Shown here: piece by piece, positions 21,558 to 31,788 of the stretch
Position numbering within the stretch: the stretch's first letter is position 1
Layout: every line of letters begins with the position of its first letter
Source: Dichomitus squalens LYAD-421 SS1
Taxonomy: Eukaryota > Basidiomycota > Agaricomycetes > Polyporales > Polyporaceae
NCBI RefSeq assembly: GCF_000275845.1
Contig: NW_006766883.1
Location: 386,182 to 450,181 of the forward strand
Length of the DNA stretch: 64,000 nt
Reading direction: 5' to 3'
Notes under the pieces: generated by a model
What the model was told of the DNA's origin: nothing
The model's database searches: none
Seen by the model: the letters and a program-made list of their open reading frames with translations, nothing else
Made by a program: the position numbers and the translations under genes

Positions 21558-23222
21558 CTACAGCACGATCCATGGTATCTCAAATAGCACAAAGTCGAAG
21601 TACTCCTGCTCCAGCAGATTCGCGTACTCGCCACCGAATTCGTCTCCTTGCGCGGAGCCCCCGGACTTTCCCTTGGCTTTGTCTGGGTTTGCGCGCTGTC
21701 CGAGGTAGGTAAACTGCTGCTGCAATATCGACAGCGTCCGCTTAGTCGCCTTCGGTTCGGGCTGGACAGGTCGGTGAGTGTGCGCGCGCGATACATTGCA
21801 GTGCTCAGGCACCAACCTTGATGAAGTAGCCGGTGTAATGCGCGGGGAGACCGTACCTCAGAACGCTCTCAATGAACAACTGGATGACCTTCAGGTGGAC
21901 AAGGATCTGGAACGATTCTGAGAAGTTCGTCCGTGATAGTTGAAGAAGTTCCGTCTGGCATAAGAGGCTTTCAGCCGACGTTCCGATACGGATGACACAT
22001 TCGTGGACGTACCCAAAGCTCCTTCTCTGTCGTATCCGCAACTTGCAGGTCTTCTCTTTGTTTAGCAATCGCCTCTTCTGAGAACGTGAAATCACGGATG
22101 ATGAACCTGGTGACAGGCAGACGACAAGGTGTGCTCAGTATCAAATCCCCCAAGGCCTCTAGAGTGCTCGTACTTGTTGTCACGGCATTTCTGCGCGAAG
22201 TCATCATGTACGCGCTTAAAGATGACAACTGAAAAGAGACTGTACTCGTCATCGGAAGCGATTAGCCTAGCAGCACGGAGGTTAGCTGATTATCTGGGAG
22301 CCGAATGGGTAGACTAAACTCACGTGGAGGATCGGGGAACAACCATGGCGGTAAGGCGTTCATATTTCGTGTTCCAGTCCTTCACTAAGTTCCTGTTGAT
22401 AGCTGTCTAAACATGCTACATGTCTGGTCGACGCCAGCTGGCTGAAGAACGGGACCTACTTTGGTACAGCGATGATAAGTGTTTGAAGGTAATCCGAGTC
22501 GTTGATGAAGTGTTCCTGGTGAACGATATCCACAAGGGAGCGTACTGATAGGTTTCCCCTGAAGCGATATGAGACAAGGGTGTGTATGGTGTATATCCAT
22601 GATCACTTACGTCTTCTTCCGCTGCATCTGCGTAAGTTGACCCTTTGCAAGGTTGTAGTTGTTCAACTTACTCTTCATAACATTGTCAATGGATGTCATC
22701 TCCTATAAGCGAGTAGAACGTCTGAGCAGACGGCTGATTCATGGCGTGCAGGGTACCGGACCTTGTTCAAAACGTCGATCATCTCTCGGAGCGACCGTTG
22801 CGTTCCATAGCGTCCCTCGTTCCACGACCATCCGCGGAGAAGATATGAGTCCACAGGTTGTTCGTTGACCAGTATATGCTGCGCGAGCTTAGACGGGTCG
22901 TTGTTCAGAAGATTCCGGAGGGTGTCCACCGTCTTGGCGACGGTAGCCGTGAAGAAGGTGTCGGTCTTCGGAAGCTCCTCAGACAAACTGACAAGAGATT
23001 CGAGGGTCCCTGTCTTTATCCAATTGAATCAGTTCCATTGTTGTCACAGGGATATCTTGGATGACGATTGACCTTGAACGACGGGATGGAGAGCTGCGCG
23101 AGGTTGGACGGGAGAACGGACTTTGAGCTTCCGGTGAGTTTAGTCGTCAGCTCGTGGTGGAGGCCCTCGGCATCGCCGGTCTCAGGGATGGAGATTAGCC
23201 AGGTACTCTGATCAGAGGGCAT
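21558..23222 (-). CDS. VMA5: V-type proton ATPase subunit C (Vma5)
   Basis: Peripheral-stalk subunit joining the V1 and V0 sectors; its release drives reversible disassembly of the vacuolar pump when glucose runs out. About nine small exons join to give MPSDQSTWLISIPETGDAEG at the start, then SVDTL-type helices and LRGWSWNEGRYGTQRSL. Later blocks are SKLNNYNLAKGQLTQMQRKK, LSVRSLVDIVHQEHFI, SDYLQTLIIAVPK, YERLTAMVVPRSS and ASDDEYSLFSVVIFKRVHDD. The C-terminus has RDFTFSEEAIAKQREDLQ, LKVIQLFIESVLRYGLP and a fungal tail with a Lys-rich loop before FDFVLFEIPWIVL. These match Vma5 along its whole length. It shares a divergent promoter of about 190 bp with the sulfurtransferase gene. Confidence 0.94.
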
Positions 23223-23415
23223 CGTGCAAGCAGGCTGATAGGTGCGAACAAGAGCGAGCACAATGTCGGGGACGGCGAGAGAGCCCAGTCCGCCGGCGTC
23301 AACCACTAAGTAGCATTTGAGCCCATGATGGCATGGCAGCGTAGGGTTAGGGTCAGTCACGTACTGACTTCAACGTGTCCGACGCTTCGCCGGTAGGACG
23401 TTACCTTGTCCCCAC

Positions 23416-25549: not shown

Positions 25550-27160
25550 GCTCGTCGACGAAGATTGGAGTACGTGGGGGATATCCACGTGCGGCCGAGT
25601 GCACGAGAAGGTAAGGTTGTGAGGTTGAAGGCTGCGAGTCAAGCGAAGTCGATTGCAGCCAGGCACAGGCACGAGACGAGTATAGAACGCGCTTTAGCCT
25701 ATAACCGGAGGGAGTGAAATCACCGTTGGAGCTGTTGTAGAGGGCTAGAATACGAGATGCGCGAGTATATGGGGAGATTTGAAGCGAGGGAAAGGCATTG
25801 AGTCGAGGAGAGTTAAGTACTTATTGCGGCTGTGCCCAAGAGAACGGAGTGCATCGGTAGTTTCGCCCTGTCCAGCGCGTTCGATCGCAAGCGTACGCAA
25901 CTGCAGCTGGTATCGGCGCGCAGCTGTCCCCCTTACGTGTCCATGTGGCGGCTGTGCGATTCGGAACGGAGTGTGGACCCCTGAACAAGCCGCCGTAGTC
26001 AGTCCTGGAGTGAATCGCCTCGCCCGCGTACCGCGTAAGCATGTCTGTCAAAGTCGTCTTGTTATCGGGGCGCTGGGCGGATACGCTGTGGCGTCCCTCT
26101 GCTCTGAACGCGCATAAGCAGCGGCGTGCAACGGATGCATGGCCCAGAAAAGAACACAGAGGCGGCCGGGGTGCTCAGTTGCGATTGCGACATCCAATGT
26201 TCGACGGGGATGTGGATCGCAGAAATCGGATTGCCGACTGCCTGATTGGAGGTGCGCCTGGCGTTGAATAGAGCTGTATAATCACATGCGATTAACTTCG
26301 GATGTAGAGCCGCCCGGCTTCGTCGGGCCCTCCGTCGGACGCGCCTCTCTCTGTGAACTGCAAGTGCATGGTCCCCTCGGTTCTCCACGGAGTCGGTTCT
26401 CGACTGTCCCGAGGGACAGCACAAATGTCCATCGTAGCATATCATATTCGCTCTCATATTGTGGCCCATCGCTCCGACCAGTCCCATACACAATGGGGAT
26501 CCAACCTGACTCGATCAGAACAGCCAAACATAAGTACTAATGATGGGTCTGGCTTGCTGTGCAGCAACCTTTTTATGGCACCCATCATTGTGATGCTGCG
26601 CTTTGCATACCGCCGGCTTCGGAGGAGTGACCCGCTGTGACCGTCAGGCATCAGAGGGAGGTCACGGCATGGGGCTGTAAACGCCCGTAGAATTGATCGG
26701 CTGTGCAAAGCGGCGCGGTAAACCATCCCTCGGCGGCCTCCAGCGAGATTCGAGGCCTCGGCCTCGATTTTCATGAAGAATTTGGGTAGTTAAGCTCCAA
26801 ACGGCGGACTTTTCCATTGTTGTGCAGCTCAGTCGAGAACAAGATGGAAGAGGTAGATCGGAGCAGAGGTGCCTAAGTTCGCAGAAGAACCACTCCGATC
26901 GCATACACAGACGTGGGCTTGATCGTATAGTATCATCTACGCCCTTACTGTGTCAGCCTGTCGGGTCGAGAAAACCTCACGCTCGACGATCCTCTAGGCT
27001 GTCAGCATGGGATCCAAGCAGGTATAGTGATATGTGCACGTGGTCATGGTTGTGCCACATCCGGTGCCGTTAGTACATGGTATCGGGTTATACTAATGTA
27101 CGACACGTCATTCCACAAATTTACTACACAAGATATCCAAGATAACATCCAGCTTCCGCT
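25550..27160. other. Gene-poor interval
   Basis: About 1.6 kb with short overlapping frames on both strands, none protein-like over more than a few residues and none joinable into a gene. No terminal repeats, microsatellite or RNA gene was recognised. Confidence 0.5.
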
Positions 27161-28004
27161 CAGAGCAAAGCGGCAACAACAGCAACGACACTCGCGAGGC
27201 TCGAAGCACCGATGGCAACATTCCTGAGGGCGCCGTTGCTGCCAGCGGAAGTGCTAGTGGAAGACGGGCTAGAGCTCGAAGGCGAGGTTGCCGTGGCCTC
27301 GACGGTGGTGGATACGGGCGTCGCTACCGAGTTCGTCGCGTTCTTGCAGGCGACAGAGGACGGGATTGTAGCGCTGTCCGAGAGAGTAAGGTCCGCACAC
27401 TGATTGAGAGAAGTTGGTCAGACACCGGACACAACGTAGCGCCTTGAGATGCAAGTACCTGGTAGAGCTGGCCATCACCGCCGTCAAAAATCAGCTGGAG
27501 AGTGACATTTGCACCGTCCTTTACGCCGCTAATGCCGGAGGACGCAAGGTCGATGTTGATGCAGAATGCGCCTTCGCCCGTGGTCTCGAAGAACGGCAGG
27601 AACTGCTGGAAGTTACCGTTGCTGTCGTGGAACAGGTTGAAATTGTTCGGGTCCTGCACGGTGGCAATTATACCACCCACTGCAATGGGACGTTAGCCTG
27701 TAAGGTAGCCGGTAAACTATGAGCGTACTCACGAGTCCACTGCGGGTGCTCCGAGTTAAGGGAGATGATACCCTTAGAGGTAGGGAAGGACGTGCGATTT
27801 GAAACGGCGTCAACGTAACCGTCTACATAAAATTAGTATACAATGAGAATTTGATCATATAAGAAGCGTGAGAGCAGACGGACCGCAGAAATGAGGCTCC
27901 TGGTCTTCGACGAATTCACCACGAGGAGGGGGATACTGGAGCTGGAAATGGGCCGATACGACGGTCAAAAGACCGGCCATAAACGTAAAAGTCGTGAGAC
28001 GCAT
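27161..28004 (-). CDS. BIM1: BIM1-like secreted copper-binding protein (X325, LPMO-like), GPI-anchored
   Basis: Extracellular, membrane-tethered copper-binding protein. Residues 1-18 form a signal peptide ([18 protein letters not shown]) that, once removed, exposes His19 as a new N-terminus ([13 protein letters not shown]). This is the histidine-brace arrangement of LPMO-like X325 proteins. A second likely copper ligand is the His in LNSEHPQWT. Cys pairs (HFCDGY, GAFCINI, YQCADL, VACKNA) suit disulfides. Four exons join in frame. The C-terminal part is a Ser/Thr-rich linker followed by a hydrophobic tail ([14 protein letters not shown]), the pattern of a GPI-anchor signal. In Cryptococcus, Bim1 is needed for growth at low copper and works with the Ctr1 importer. 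Here a CTR gene lies immediately upstream on the same strand. Confidence 0.87.
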
Positions 28005-28163
28005 TCCGGACGTTGGAGACGTATGAGATGGGCGACAAAGTATTCGTGGAATGGGGGTGGGGAATGGAGGGACGAGGAGTCCCGTCTTTTAATGGCTGGG
28101 TCCGAGTCGGATAGGCGAGATTCCTTGAGCGCTTGCACAGATTAAAAAGTTTTTTCTCCTGTG

Positions 28164-28171
28164 TTTGCGCG
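28164..28171 (+). promoter_or_regulatory. Candidate copper-response element, TTTGCGCG
   Basis: Exact match to the yeast Mac1 consensus TTTGC(T/G)C(A/G), lying about 160 bp upstream of the BIM1-like start codon. Low-copper regulators of basidiomycetes belong to the Mac1/Cuf1 family. An 8-bp match can occur by chance, so the functional role is inference. Confidence 0.35.
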
Positions 28172-28222
28172 AGCAACCGCTCATCCCATGTAGCTGTGTG
28201 CCTGTGTCCTATGCGACACGCA

Positions 28223-28230
28223 ATTGCTCA
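28223..28230 (+). promoter_or_regulatory. Second, imperfect copper-response-like element, ATTGCTCA
   Basis: One mismatch from TTTGCTCA, 59 bp from the first site and in the same orientation. Paired sites are typical of Mac1 targets in yeast. Weak on its own. Confidence 0.25.
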
Positions 28231-28412
28231 ATAATCATGAAACGTTCGTGGTGACGCCACCCTTCCGGTCATCTGAGCTTGACAAACACAATTATCCCGC
28301 GCAATGTCACTTCGGAATGAGCAGCGGGTGACATTAACTCTCTGTTACCGTTCACGCATACCGTCTCGCATGTAATCAAAGTACACAAGTTAGCTAAAAC
28401 AGAGCTCTCCCT

Positions 28413-29089
28413 CTAATGATGACCAGGGTGGCTCCTAGAACCAAAGCGCCCGAAGAGTACCTCCCCAATCGCTAACCCGACAACGATCGAAATGAGATAT
28501 CCCGCTTGGAAGGTCCTGAAAGAAAAATCTTTTTCAGCACACAGCCATCAGCGCTAGACCTTTCGGGGACGCACATGACCGCCAGCATCAGGACATAAAA
28601 GAGCAGAGCCTGGAACGCGAACAGCGCACCGCGTGGGACGTCGTGAGAAGGAATGAAGGGTGGGATCATTCGAGAGGACCGTTGGGGACGGCGGGCAGCC
28701 TTGGTTGCCAGGGGGTTGACCTCCACCTCTTCCACGCCATCCAACATCGCCGACTTCGAATCAGGGGAGTTGGAGGGGTTTTGGAAGGAGGGATCGGAAG
28801 AGTGGCACTCGTCCCTTGATGCAGGGGACGACATGGCTGCTAAGGCTCTGGGCACAGCGGCATGGATCGCATCAACATAAAGCCATGTGTGCAGGGAACG
28901 AGGGACGCACTGTTTCTTCCACTGGGCCTCCAACACCCCTCGCATTCCGTTTACCCATCGTTCAAATATGGCGAAGAGGAGTAGACCAATACAAGCGCCA
29001 GCGATAGCCCCCTTCGAGGAGGGCTGCCAAGCCTCGAAGAGCAACTTATCGCCGCTTGTGAAGTGAAGCCAAGGAATCATTGTGTCCAT
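28413..29089 (-). CDS. CTR: CTR-family copper transporter
   Basis: Copper(I) channel of the Ctr family, a trimer in the plasma or vacuolar membrane. Exon 1 is 29089-28575, exon 2 is 28515-28413; the 59-nt intron has a GTGCGT donor and interrupts the Met codon after LMLAV. The ectodomain is short: MDTMIPWLHFTSGDKLLFEA. TM1 is GAIAGACIGLLLFAIF. A cytosolic loop rich in Ser, Pro and Arg follows. TM2 ends FYVLMLAVMTFQAGYLIS, holding the M-x-x-x-M selectivity motif (MLAVM). TM3 has the G-x-x-x-G packing motif in VVGLAIGEVLFGRF. About 205 residues. The N-terminus lacks the usual clusters of Met motifs, which may point to a low-affinity or vacuolar (Ctr2-like) transporter. It ends with two His (HPGHH). 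Confidence 0.9.
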
Positions 29090-29294
29090 GACTGCAGAAT
29101 TTGATAAAGACAGATCGATTGCGGAGAGGTATCGTCGTCGGCAGCAGGTTGGGCTGATCGGTTGTGGTGGGGATCGATGAAGTCCGTTTTCGGTGCACTG
29201 TGAGCGAACGAGAACCCGGGCATTGCCGGTCGCAGCCAAACACGGACAAACATCCGCTGCGACGCGTGGGTGTGGCGACGAGAAACAAGCCCAA

Positions 29295-30101
29295 CTATGG
29301 ATGTTGTTCGTACGGGCGTAGGCATGTACCAGTAGATTCATCACCGATGGACATGGGTGAGTCAGCGATCGGTAGAACTAGGGTGAACAGATAGCCACGT
29401 ACGGGTTGTCAAAGCTGGGCGGACGGTGAATGGCTGGGGAAGCTGAGTGATCTTGCTACCCTACGAAGTCCAATCCATTCGCTAATGCTAAAGCATACGG
29501 GACGCACCTTGATGGGGACAGATTCGGAGAACTGCGCTCGCACGTCCCACACAGTCTGATGTTGACTGGTCACGCACCTAGCATAAAGTCCTCTAACTGG
29601 ACAACTCCACGATCGCCAGCTTCCAGACCAAGGTGAAGTTGAGCGAAGGAAGACGAATGAGCAGATGTGACTGAGCGAGACTGCAAGATGTGCCGATGAA
29701 TCGCAGCCAACGATTGGTTATCGGCGACCCGAACGAGCTTGTTGAGAACTACGCTCCCACTCGTTCGGCCAGGGACAGGAGATATGCATGAGAACAGCAG
29801 ACGAGGGACCGAAGCAGGATGAAGAGGGAGGCGAAACCAAGAGAGGAGAGGAACAACCGAGGGGGGGACTACAGAGGTGACGGTTGAGAGGAGAGAGGCA
29901 GGGATGAGGGAGATTCGCTGAGGCAATTGTGCCCAGCCAATGGCAAAATGCCGCGGCCGAGACTCCTCAAACGCCCTGTCATGTGATGCTGTTAGGCACG
30001 ACTTGGGGCGCCTATATGACCTGTCGCAATCAAGTCGTGACTTCACCAGTTCCCAATAGGATCGTCTACTTTAGTACTTACCTCGGGCTGGCTCTCATCC
30101 G
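29295..30101 (-). CDS. Uncertain small gene upstream of CTR
   Basis: Possible gene, weakly supported. A minus-strand ATG at 30101 (MRASP) is followed by a perfect GTAAGT donor. The acceptor near 30020 would lead into a 450-nt open frame containing LVRVADNQSLAAIHRHILQS and FAQLHLGLEAGDRGVVQLED. Downstream splicing to 29295 can be drawn in more than one way. Much of the open frame (29800-29950) is CT-rich on this strand and contains a CCAAT-like box, so it may instead be the leader of a shorter gene starting near 29787 (MHISCPWPNEWERS). No domain was recognised. If real, its 3' end lies in the CTR 5' region and its start is only 53 bp from the divergent rhodanese gene. Confidence 0.3.
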
Positions 30102-30153
30102 CTCTTTCAAGAAGCTCCTTCTAACGACGATCTGAACCTCGTCGGACCTCCAC

Positions 30154-30783
30154 ATGTTGCGTGCAGCCCTCACTCGATCGGCCGTGCGGGTCGCCTCCCA
30201 TGTCAGACCTCCTACACCCTCTACTCGTATTGCTCTGCAGCACATCCGGTGTGAATCATCCAACGCTTCGGACGAGCGGCGGAAACGACTGGAAGCAGCT
30301 GATAACTTGCGGCGTGACTGGGACGCCAAGGTCATCACTTACGAGGAATTGAAACCGAAGACGACACAGCCGAGTCCTGTACGTACCTGACCTCCTGTGC
30401 CGTAGGACCGCCATCTAAACGAATACAGGACAAATACTTGATTGACGTCCGGGAACCTGATGAGGTCCTGCAAGGCTCGATCCCCTCCGCCGTTAACCTC
30501 CCGCTTTCTCAGCTCGCTACTGCGCTTCATCTGCCTCCCGAGCAGTTCAAGGAGAAGTACGGGTTTGAGAAGCCACGACCCAACCAGGAGGTCACGTTCT
30601 ACTGTAGAAGTGGAGTGCGCTCAACGTCTGCGTCCGACGTTGCTAAGAGGAATGGGTACACAAAGTATGCATCCCGCTCTTGCTTTTCCATGCCGCACCT
30701 GACACCTCGATTCCAGTATCCTTAACTACAAGGGTTCCTGGCTGGAATGGACCGAGCGCGAAGGGACGAAGCCTGCAGCTTAG
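30154..30783 (+). CDS. Mitochondrial single-domain rhodanese (Rdl-type thiosulfate sulfurtransferase)
   Basis: Sulfurtransferase acting on thiosulfate or persulfides, probably in the mitochondrial matrix. Three exons; the first encodes a strong presequence (MLRAALTRSAVRVASHVRPP, basic and without acidic residues). The domain starts DKYLIDVREPDEVLQGSIPS, with AVNLPLSQLATALHLP next, then the active loop VTFYCRSGVRSTSASDVAK, where Cys is catalytic in C-R-S-G-V-R. The last exon restores ILNYKGSWLEWTEREG, the usual end of yeast Rdl1/Rdl2 and bacterial GlpE-like rhodaneses. About 175 residues, normal for the group. Such enzymes take part in sulfide and persulfide handling and have been linked to Fe-S chemistry; frataxin lies next downstream on the same strand. 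Confidence 0.9.
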
Positions 30784-31049: not shown

Positions 31050-31788
31050 ATGAATCTTCGACAAGTCTTCAAAGTCTCTGCGCGGCCAGTGTCTGCCCTC
31101 AGATGTGCGTCGCGCCTCAGCGCGTCCCGCCCTCTACACGTCCTGTCCCAGCTTTCGCGCACACGAATACCACCGCCCTCATGCCCGCGAAGACATTATG
31201 CTACGCCGCCACCGCAGGTGAAGCACAGGTCCGCTCGCACCGAAAGCAATTCTGCGGCATGATGTCGAAGATAGCTGATGTGCTTCCCATGTGCGCAGCG
31301 ACCTTCCCGTCAACCTGTATCACCAATATTCCGATGCGACCATGGAGAAGATGCTAGAATCGTTGGAAAACCTACTAGACGAAGCAGGAGATCCAGAATA
31401 CGAGGTTGACTATGGGGTGCGTGGCTCTGCTCTGCTCATCGCATGTGTACGGTCCCCTGACCGCAGTCCAACAGAGCGGTGTTCTAACCCTGAAGTTGGG
31501 CAGCCATGGAACATACGTTATCAACAAGCAGCCGCCAAATAAACAGATATGGCTGTCATCCCCCTTCAGGTGCGCCGTCTTAGTTCGATTCGGATGAACG
31601 AACTGTCCCGAGCGCTGATACCTGCCCCCAGCGGTCCTAAACGGTATGATTATGTACCCGAACGGGACGATTGGGTGTATGCGCGAGATGGCCGGTCCTT
31701 AAGCGAACTTCTCAACCAGGAACTGAGCGATGTCTTTGAGCGAGAAGTGGATCTAGGTTTGGCAGAAGTCTCGACACAAGTCAGCTGA
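31050..31788 (+). CDS. YFH1: Frataxin
   Basis: Mitochondrial frataxin, an allosteric activator and iron partner of the Nfs1-Isd11-Isu Fe-S assembly complex. Four exons join. The long presequence begins [20 protein letters not shown] and is rich in Arg and Ser. The mature domain starts near [20 protein letters not shown], with the acidic ridge [14 protein letters not shown]. Strands follow: [19 protein letters not shown], the conserved [20 protein letters not shown] (N, Q, W and the S-P-x-S-G-P motif bind the assembly complex) and [17 protein letters not shown]. It ends in a short extension after [17 protein letters not shown]. Loss of this gene in other fungi causes iron overload. Transcribed in the same direction as the upstream rhodanese, 267 bp away. 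Confidence 0.95.

Follow-up and report, generated by a model that had tools for sequence, protein, structure and literature searches.

One of the closest described counterparts of the locus reported here is found in Cryptococcus, where the anchored protein Cbi1/Bim1 is reported to bind and release copper and to work with the transporter Ctr1 (PMC9258870). The Cryptococcus gene CNAG_07701, which has been named CTR1/CTR2 (PMC4992176), is required there for growth in low copper (PMC2932688, PMC4992176); its product carries three MXXM motifs within residues 1–10 and, in the region of its first helix, shares 42% identity with Pleurotus Ctr1 (PMC2932688). The precedent on which the first-pass annotation of the present DNA had drawn, namely that Bim1 works with Ctr1 in Cryptococcus neoformans, is borne out by this literature. 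The Cryptococcus system and the present locus both combine an X325-family protein, GPI-anchored in Cryptococcus and with a putative GPI-type tail here, with a CTR having a short MXXM start. In C. neoformans, however, it is the functional partnership that is reported, with gene linkage going unmentioned in the available portions of these sources, whereas here the genes adjoin and the partnership is proposed by analogy. Copper transfer from an X325 protein to a CTR is known in outline only, mainly from Cryptococcus.

Both protein families and their cooperation have thus been described, as have copper gene pairs of the ctr/fre type in Fusarium. In Fusarium oxysporum, the co-regulated pair ctr3/fre9 and the pair ctr1b/fre12 are reported, which resemble the present locus in that copper-uptake genes adjoin in a fungus. 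The partner there is a metalloreductase and the genes are divergent with common Mac1 sites, whereas the pair described here is in tandem, has an X325 partner and lacks motif support. A further parallel is BLP2 of Pseudogymnoascus destructans (VC83_03095), the tag of which is consecutive with that of another copper-shortage gene (VC83_03096); this partner is again a metalloreductase, and the adjacency is deduced from the tags. BIM1-like genes of this fungus are reported to be induced by copper shortage, yet its three BIM1-like locus tags lie far from its two CTR tags, which indicates that linkage is not needed for a common copper response. The first-pass annotation had been aware of no described genomic pairing of X325/BIM1 with CTR genes. 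The literature searched likewise yielded none, although the founding X325/Bim1 papers, which may mention linkage, were outside its reach.

The window, i.e., the whole stretch of 64,000 nucleotides that was analysed from Dichomitus squalens, a species of the Polyporales, was found to contain the following features at and around the pair:

22700-23250, minus strand: V-ATPase subunit C gene (PF03223), further along, past X325
27160..28004, minus strand: X325/BIM1-like gene, four exons, 223 aa (PF20238; alignment with the solved X325 6ibh)
28005..28412, minus strand: gap between CTR and X325, 408 bp, presumed X325 promoter, scanned for motifs
28413..29089, minus strand: CTR copper transporter gene, three exons, 184 aa, outer segment MDTMIPW (PF04145)
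29090..30153, no strand: intergenic stretch of 1064 bp separating CTR from the divergently oriented rhodanese gene, scanned for motifs
30154..30783, plus strand: rhodanese gene (PF00581, 67.3 bits), 100% identical to a D. squalens protein; divergent neighbour, used as linkage control
31051-31700, plus strand: frataxin gene (PF01491), adjoining the rhodanese gene

The CTR gene lies upstream of the X325 gene, both on the minus strand, with 408 bp from the CTR stop to the X325 ATG. The exons (28004-27884, 27822-27733, 27679-27459 and 27399-27160 for X325; 29089-28911, 28847-28575 and 28515-28413 for CTR) were spliced by script from the window DNA, and all five introns have GT...AG ends. The two adjacent minus-strand genes and the 408-bp gap of the first-pass annotation were confirmed by this splicing; of the limits it had placed on them, 27161..29089, the right end is correct and the left end is off by one base, the X325 stop codon ending at 27160. 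One public D. squalens CTR model translates the first CTR intron (28848-28910) and is otherwise the same protein. The frataxin gene is an iron-sulfur related neighbour, possibly present by chance.

The X325 protein matches the BIM1-like family profile PF20238 over profile positions 1–139 of 140 (102.5 bits against a cut-off of 27), and its domain (residues 1–148) aligns with the solved X325 structures 6ibh, 6ibi and 6ibj at an E value of 4.6e-33. The likeness to this protein, LaX325 of Laetisaria arvalis, extends over the whole domain with conserved His, Cys and Asp positions, although the identity in the alignment is 39%. A predicted signal peptide of 18 residues is followed by His19, the predicted first mature residue. 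The protein has four cysteines (C40, C110, C145 and C162), a linker (residues 164–205) of which 48% is Ser/Thr, and a hydrophobic C-terminus with a mean hydropathy of 2.15 across the last 16 residues; the leader and the GPI-type tail were predicted from hydropathy and family alignment. Copper in X325 proteins is reported to be bound by two His and one Asp (PMC11766592, PMC10952591). His19, His66, the four cysteines, Asp139 and Asp147 are invariant in all 14 aligned sequences, the solved X325 included, so that there are two candidates for the Asp ligand with which the D. squalens protein would bind copper.

One X325 gene, that of the window, came out when the genome was searched with the PF20238 profile and with four proteins as queries, exon by exon and with few candidates scored, a procedure which a divergent paralogue could escape. 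A match on C53 (E value of 0.208, 16.4 bits, one stop) was treated as due to chance. The D. squalens X325 protein is absent among the best 120 of 251 X325 matches, in lists where the D. squalens CTR and rhodanese proteins do appear; public annotations of this species may have missed the gene or modelled it at a very different length.

The CTR protein matches PF04145 (Ctr) over positions 2–151 of 151 with 124.4 bits against a cut-off of 25.3. It is hydrophobic from about residue 24 and has a long stretch at about 130–176 which would fit two helices, the second and third helices showing no separate hydropathy peaks. The MxxxM motif is MLAVM at 147–151 and the GxxxG motif GLAIG at 164–168, with further GxxxG motifs at 27 and 31. 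Thus the protein features in the first-pass annotation (a BIM1-like protein with a leader, an immediate His, a Cys set, a Ser/Thr linker and a GPI-type tail, beside a three-helix CTR with MxxxM and GxxxG) were all recovered, with leader, tail and helices predicted from hydropathy and, for the first two, alignment.

The N-terminus of this CTR reads MDTMIPWLHF, and the Met-rich outer segment of high-affinity CTRs is absent, MDTM alone preceding the first conserved block; this bears on assignment to the high-affinity type and not on membership of the CTR family. Three CTR loci were found in the genome (40.3 Mb, 116 contigs). The other two, referred to as C34 and C3, encode proteins with longer, Met-containing starts (MDMSMDGAM and MPMPMP, respectively), which share 51% and 30% identity, in that order, with the window CTR. 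Several CTR orthologues elsewhere also have more Met at the start, which argues against a strict "replacement" of the Met segment by X325. With three CTR genes in 40.3 Mb, the chance that a single X325 gene would fall 5 kb or less from one of them is about 0.0007.

Linkage in relatives was followed by a proxy, in which rows were grouped per genome and equal-sized contigs were taken as one contig, together with locus tags. The protein lists compared were the best 120 of 251 (X325), 234 (CTR) and 367 (rhodanese) matches, of which 96, 73 and 101 rows were used, respectively; the rows dropped (24, 47 and 19) were nearly all metagenome rows without species. Among the 34 genomes present in both best-120 lists, X325 and CTR were found on an equal-sized contig in 31, against a chance expectation of about 1.5 for genomes of 40 Mb, although the shared contigs are mostly long (15 of the 31 are ≤1 Mb in size, and five are ≤100 kb). 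Where X325 lies on a contig of ≤100 kb, CTR shares that contig in five of five cases (0.007 expected; best-120 lists). X325 and CTR were on different contigs in Abortiporus, Amylocystis and Taiwanofungus; all three were counted as misses even though the Taiwanofungus case compares two strains and the Abortiporus CTR row may derive from another assembly. Consecutive X325 and CTR tags were found in all four same-contig genomes with comparable sequential tags:

Trametes cinnabarina: g134 (CTR) and g135 (X325)
Antrodiella citrinella: g7168/g7169
Steccherinum ochraceum: 005022/005023
Phlebia brevispora: g4153/g4154, on a 13-kb contig

The 31 linked genomes belong to Polyporales (19), Boletales (6), Gloeophyllales (2), Russulales (2), Atheliales (1) and Agaricales (1), with the order looked up for five of the genomes and taken as background for the others. 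The enrichment of CTR genes beside BIM1-like genes in relatives, for which the first-pass annotation had proposed a survey, was therefore found both by shared contig and by tag order.

The rhodanese gene served as a control for this linkage, being the neighbour of CTR on the side opposite X325 and having no evident copper role. Rhodanese and CTR share an equal-sized contig in 28 of 32 genomes (best-120 lists), a figure in which D. squalens itself, represented by different assemblies, counts as a miss though the genes adjoin in the window; for rhodanese and X325 the figure is 28 of 31, and all three genes are on one contig in 15 of the 18 genomes common to the three best-120 lists. The tags of T. 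cinnabarina run from g133 (rhodanese) through g134 (CTR) to g135 (X325), and of the six genomes whose tags are sequential, five have rhodanese and CTR tags at most two apart, the sixth being Psilocybe cyanescens (51 apart). In Fomes, X325 and CTR are retained together, with rhodanese separated from both; in Abortiporus, X325 and rhodanese are retained together, with the CTR among the matches listed lying elsewhere; in Amylocystis all three are apart. The X325-CTR pair is therefore part of an old conserved gene block that includes rhodanese. As the rhodanese-CTR linkage is about as frequent, linkage alone is no proof of functional coupling as opposed to inherited order, and in these genomes no pair should be called functional from linkage counts unless a neighbour gene serves as yardstick. 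A yardstick is offered by the polycistronic transcripts of Plicaturopsis, for which 78 of 288 adjacent ORF pairs are reported to be conserved in at least one of 47 genomes; the pairs conserved in T. versicolor number 19, those in P. chrysosporium 19 and those in G. trabeum 21 (PMC4503453). By this measure a block retained across six orders looks above average, though the comparison is a rough one, of strict adjacency there with the same contig here.

Mac1-type cores (TTGCTC and TGCTCA; Fusarium consensus DHNTGCTCANNN; PMC11563359) and the CuRE consensus from Cryptococcus (PMC7961099) were scanned for upstream of X325 and the three CTR genes. In the 408-bp gap, TTGCTC occurs twice against 0.22 expected (P = 0.022) and TGCTCA twice against 0.28 expected (P = 0.033) by shuffling, and the excess over random window stretches has P values of 0.029 and 0.044, all uncorrected. 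The cores in the gap include:

28323-28318: TGCTCA
28230-28225, opposite strand: TGCTCA
28176-28171: TTGCTC

The 1064 bp before CTR showed no excess, with no TTGCTC (0.62 expected) and one TGCTCA (0.72 expected). Among the X325 gene and the three CTR genes scanned, the weak Mac1-type excess is thus confined to X325. CuRE was not enriched above window background before X325 or CTR (P = 0.27 and 0.26); a single exact match was located 866 bp upstream of the CTR ATG, closer to the rhodanese gene. Judged from these motifs, joint copper control of X325 and CTR is unsupported, but since the elements scanned are those of Fusarium and Cryptococcus and maybe not those of Agaricomycetes, this is a weak negative for co-regulation. 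A scan for AATAAA gave five occurrences in the window and none between CTR and X325, and was considered uninformative.

We lean towards the reading that X325 and CTR form a tandem copper-acquisition pair of Agaricomycetes in which X325 hands copper to CTR, and regard it as probable, if narrowly so. In such a pair, X325 at the membrane would gather scarce copper, a separate reductase would reduce it before transfer, and X325 would then pass it to the neighbouring CTR trimer, itself almost without a Met-rich catching segment (MDTM); X325 would in effect be the outer copper collector for the window CTR. The hand-over is plausible because of the Cryptococcus Bim1/Cbi1-Ctr1 biology and the very short outer segment of the CTR. 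The partnership is also favoured by the short MXXM start that CNAG_07701 has in common with the window CTR, and the pair by the invariant ligand residues, by Fomes, by the position of the one X325 gene beside one of three CTRs and by the co-regulated ctr3/fre9 pair of Fusarium. Against it count the rhodanese-CTR linkage, the lack of motif excess before CTR, the distant BIM1-like and CTR tags of P. destructans, the CTR orthologues with more Met at the start and the three genomes with X325 and CTR on different contigs. The copper-acquisition pair put forward in the first-pass annotation is thus upheld in the gene identities and the conserved linkage, while the linkage proved unspecific and CTR motif support was lacking. 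It is quite possible instead that rhodanese, CTR and X325 form an old, little-broken stretch in which the adjacency of the copper genes is accidental, both maybe still acting in uptake. The rhodanese counts with either gene and with both, and the T. cinnabarina tag order, are what this inherited order would give; it accords less well with the single case of Fomes, where the pair outlasts the rhodanese linkage, and with the above-average retention of the block indicated by the Plicaturopsis pairs.

Two further alternatives concern the proteins themselves. That X325 is mainly a cell-wall or secreted wood-decay protein, and not a copper donor to CTR, appears unlikely: Cbi1 has also been tied to the Cryptococcus cell wall (PMC9258870, PMC12113139) and X325 is reported among the major secreted proteins of Crucibulum laeve in every medium tested (PMC11766592), but several X325 members are reported to be without detected polysaccharide-degrading activity (PMC7924993), the tail of the window protein is GPI-like by hydropathy, and the copper-shortage induction in P. 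destructans speaks against a non-copper role. It is very unlikely that the window CTR resides on an internal (vacuolar) membrane, where an X325 at the cell surface would be unable to load it directly, as might be suggested by its outer segment, which is very short and has a single MxxM. The CSMNM...CH layout, which we take to be that of yeast Ctr2, is found in the C3 CTR, the less similar of the two paralogues, and the short MXXM start recalls CNAG_07701, needed in low copper (PMC2932688, PMC4992176). A stronger form of the preferred pair reading, in which X325 and the window CTR are a dedicated two-gene import unit fixed early in Agaricomycetes, with X325 as external loading subunit of a minimal-Met CTR and with possible read-through transcripts, is rather doubtful. 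The tandem order with CTR first and the 408-bp gap would allow such CTR-X325 transcripts, and the average inter-ORF distance reported for Agaricomycete read-through transcripts is 364 nt (PMC4503453).

Many wood-decay enzymes, such as laccases and LPMOs, need copper, and the pair makes copper hand-over testable in wood-decay fungi. For dozens of mushroom species, the conserved physical pair also indicates which of the CTR paralogues is probably the cognate one. A ferric-reductase-type gene (C34:184347-186471, minus strand; PF01794, PF08022 and PF08030) was found on the strand that carries the C34 CTR, at a distance of about 2 kb and separated from it by a NADAR-domain gene, so that two of the three CTR genes in the genome have another copper-uptake-type gene close by. 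As ferric-reductase-type enzymes can also serve iron uptake, this arrangement is a lead only; if true, the genome would contain partner-CTR modules of two kinds, one with X325 and one with a metalloreductase.

Copper-fist transcription factor domains were located at two places in the genome (C26:133547-133633 and C116:10942-11028), neither on the contig of the pair, and these are candidate copper regulators. In Pleurotus eryngii, a 386-aa protein contains one X325 domain plus another that is incomplete, perhaps two tandem X325 genes fused in annotation. The X325 accessions reported for Crucibulum laeve are consecutive (TFK41392.1 and TFK41393.1).
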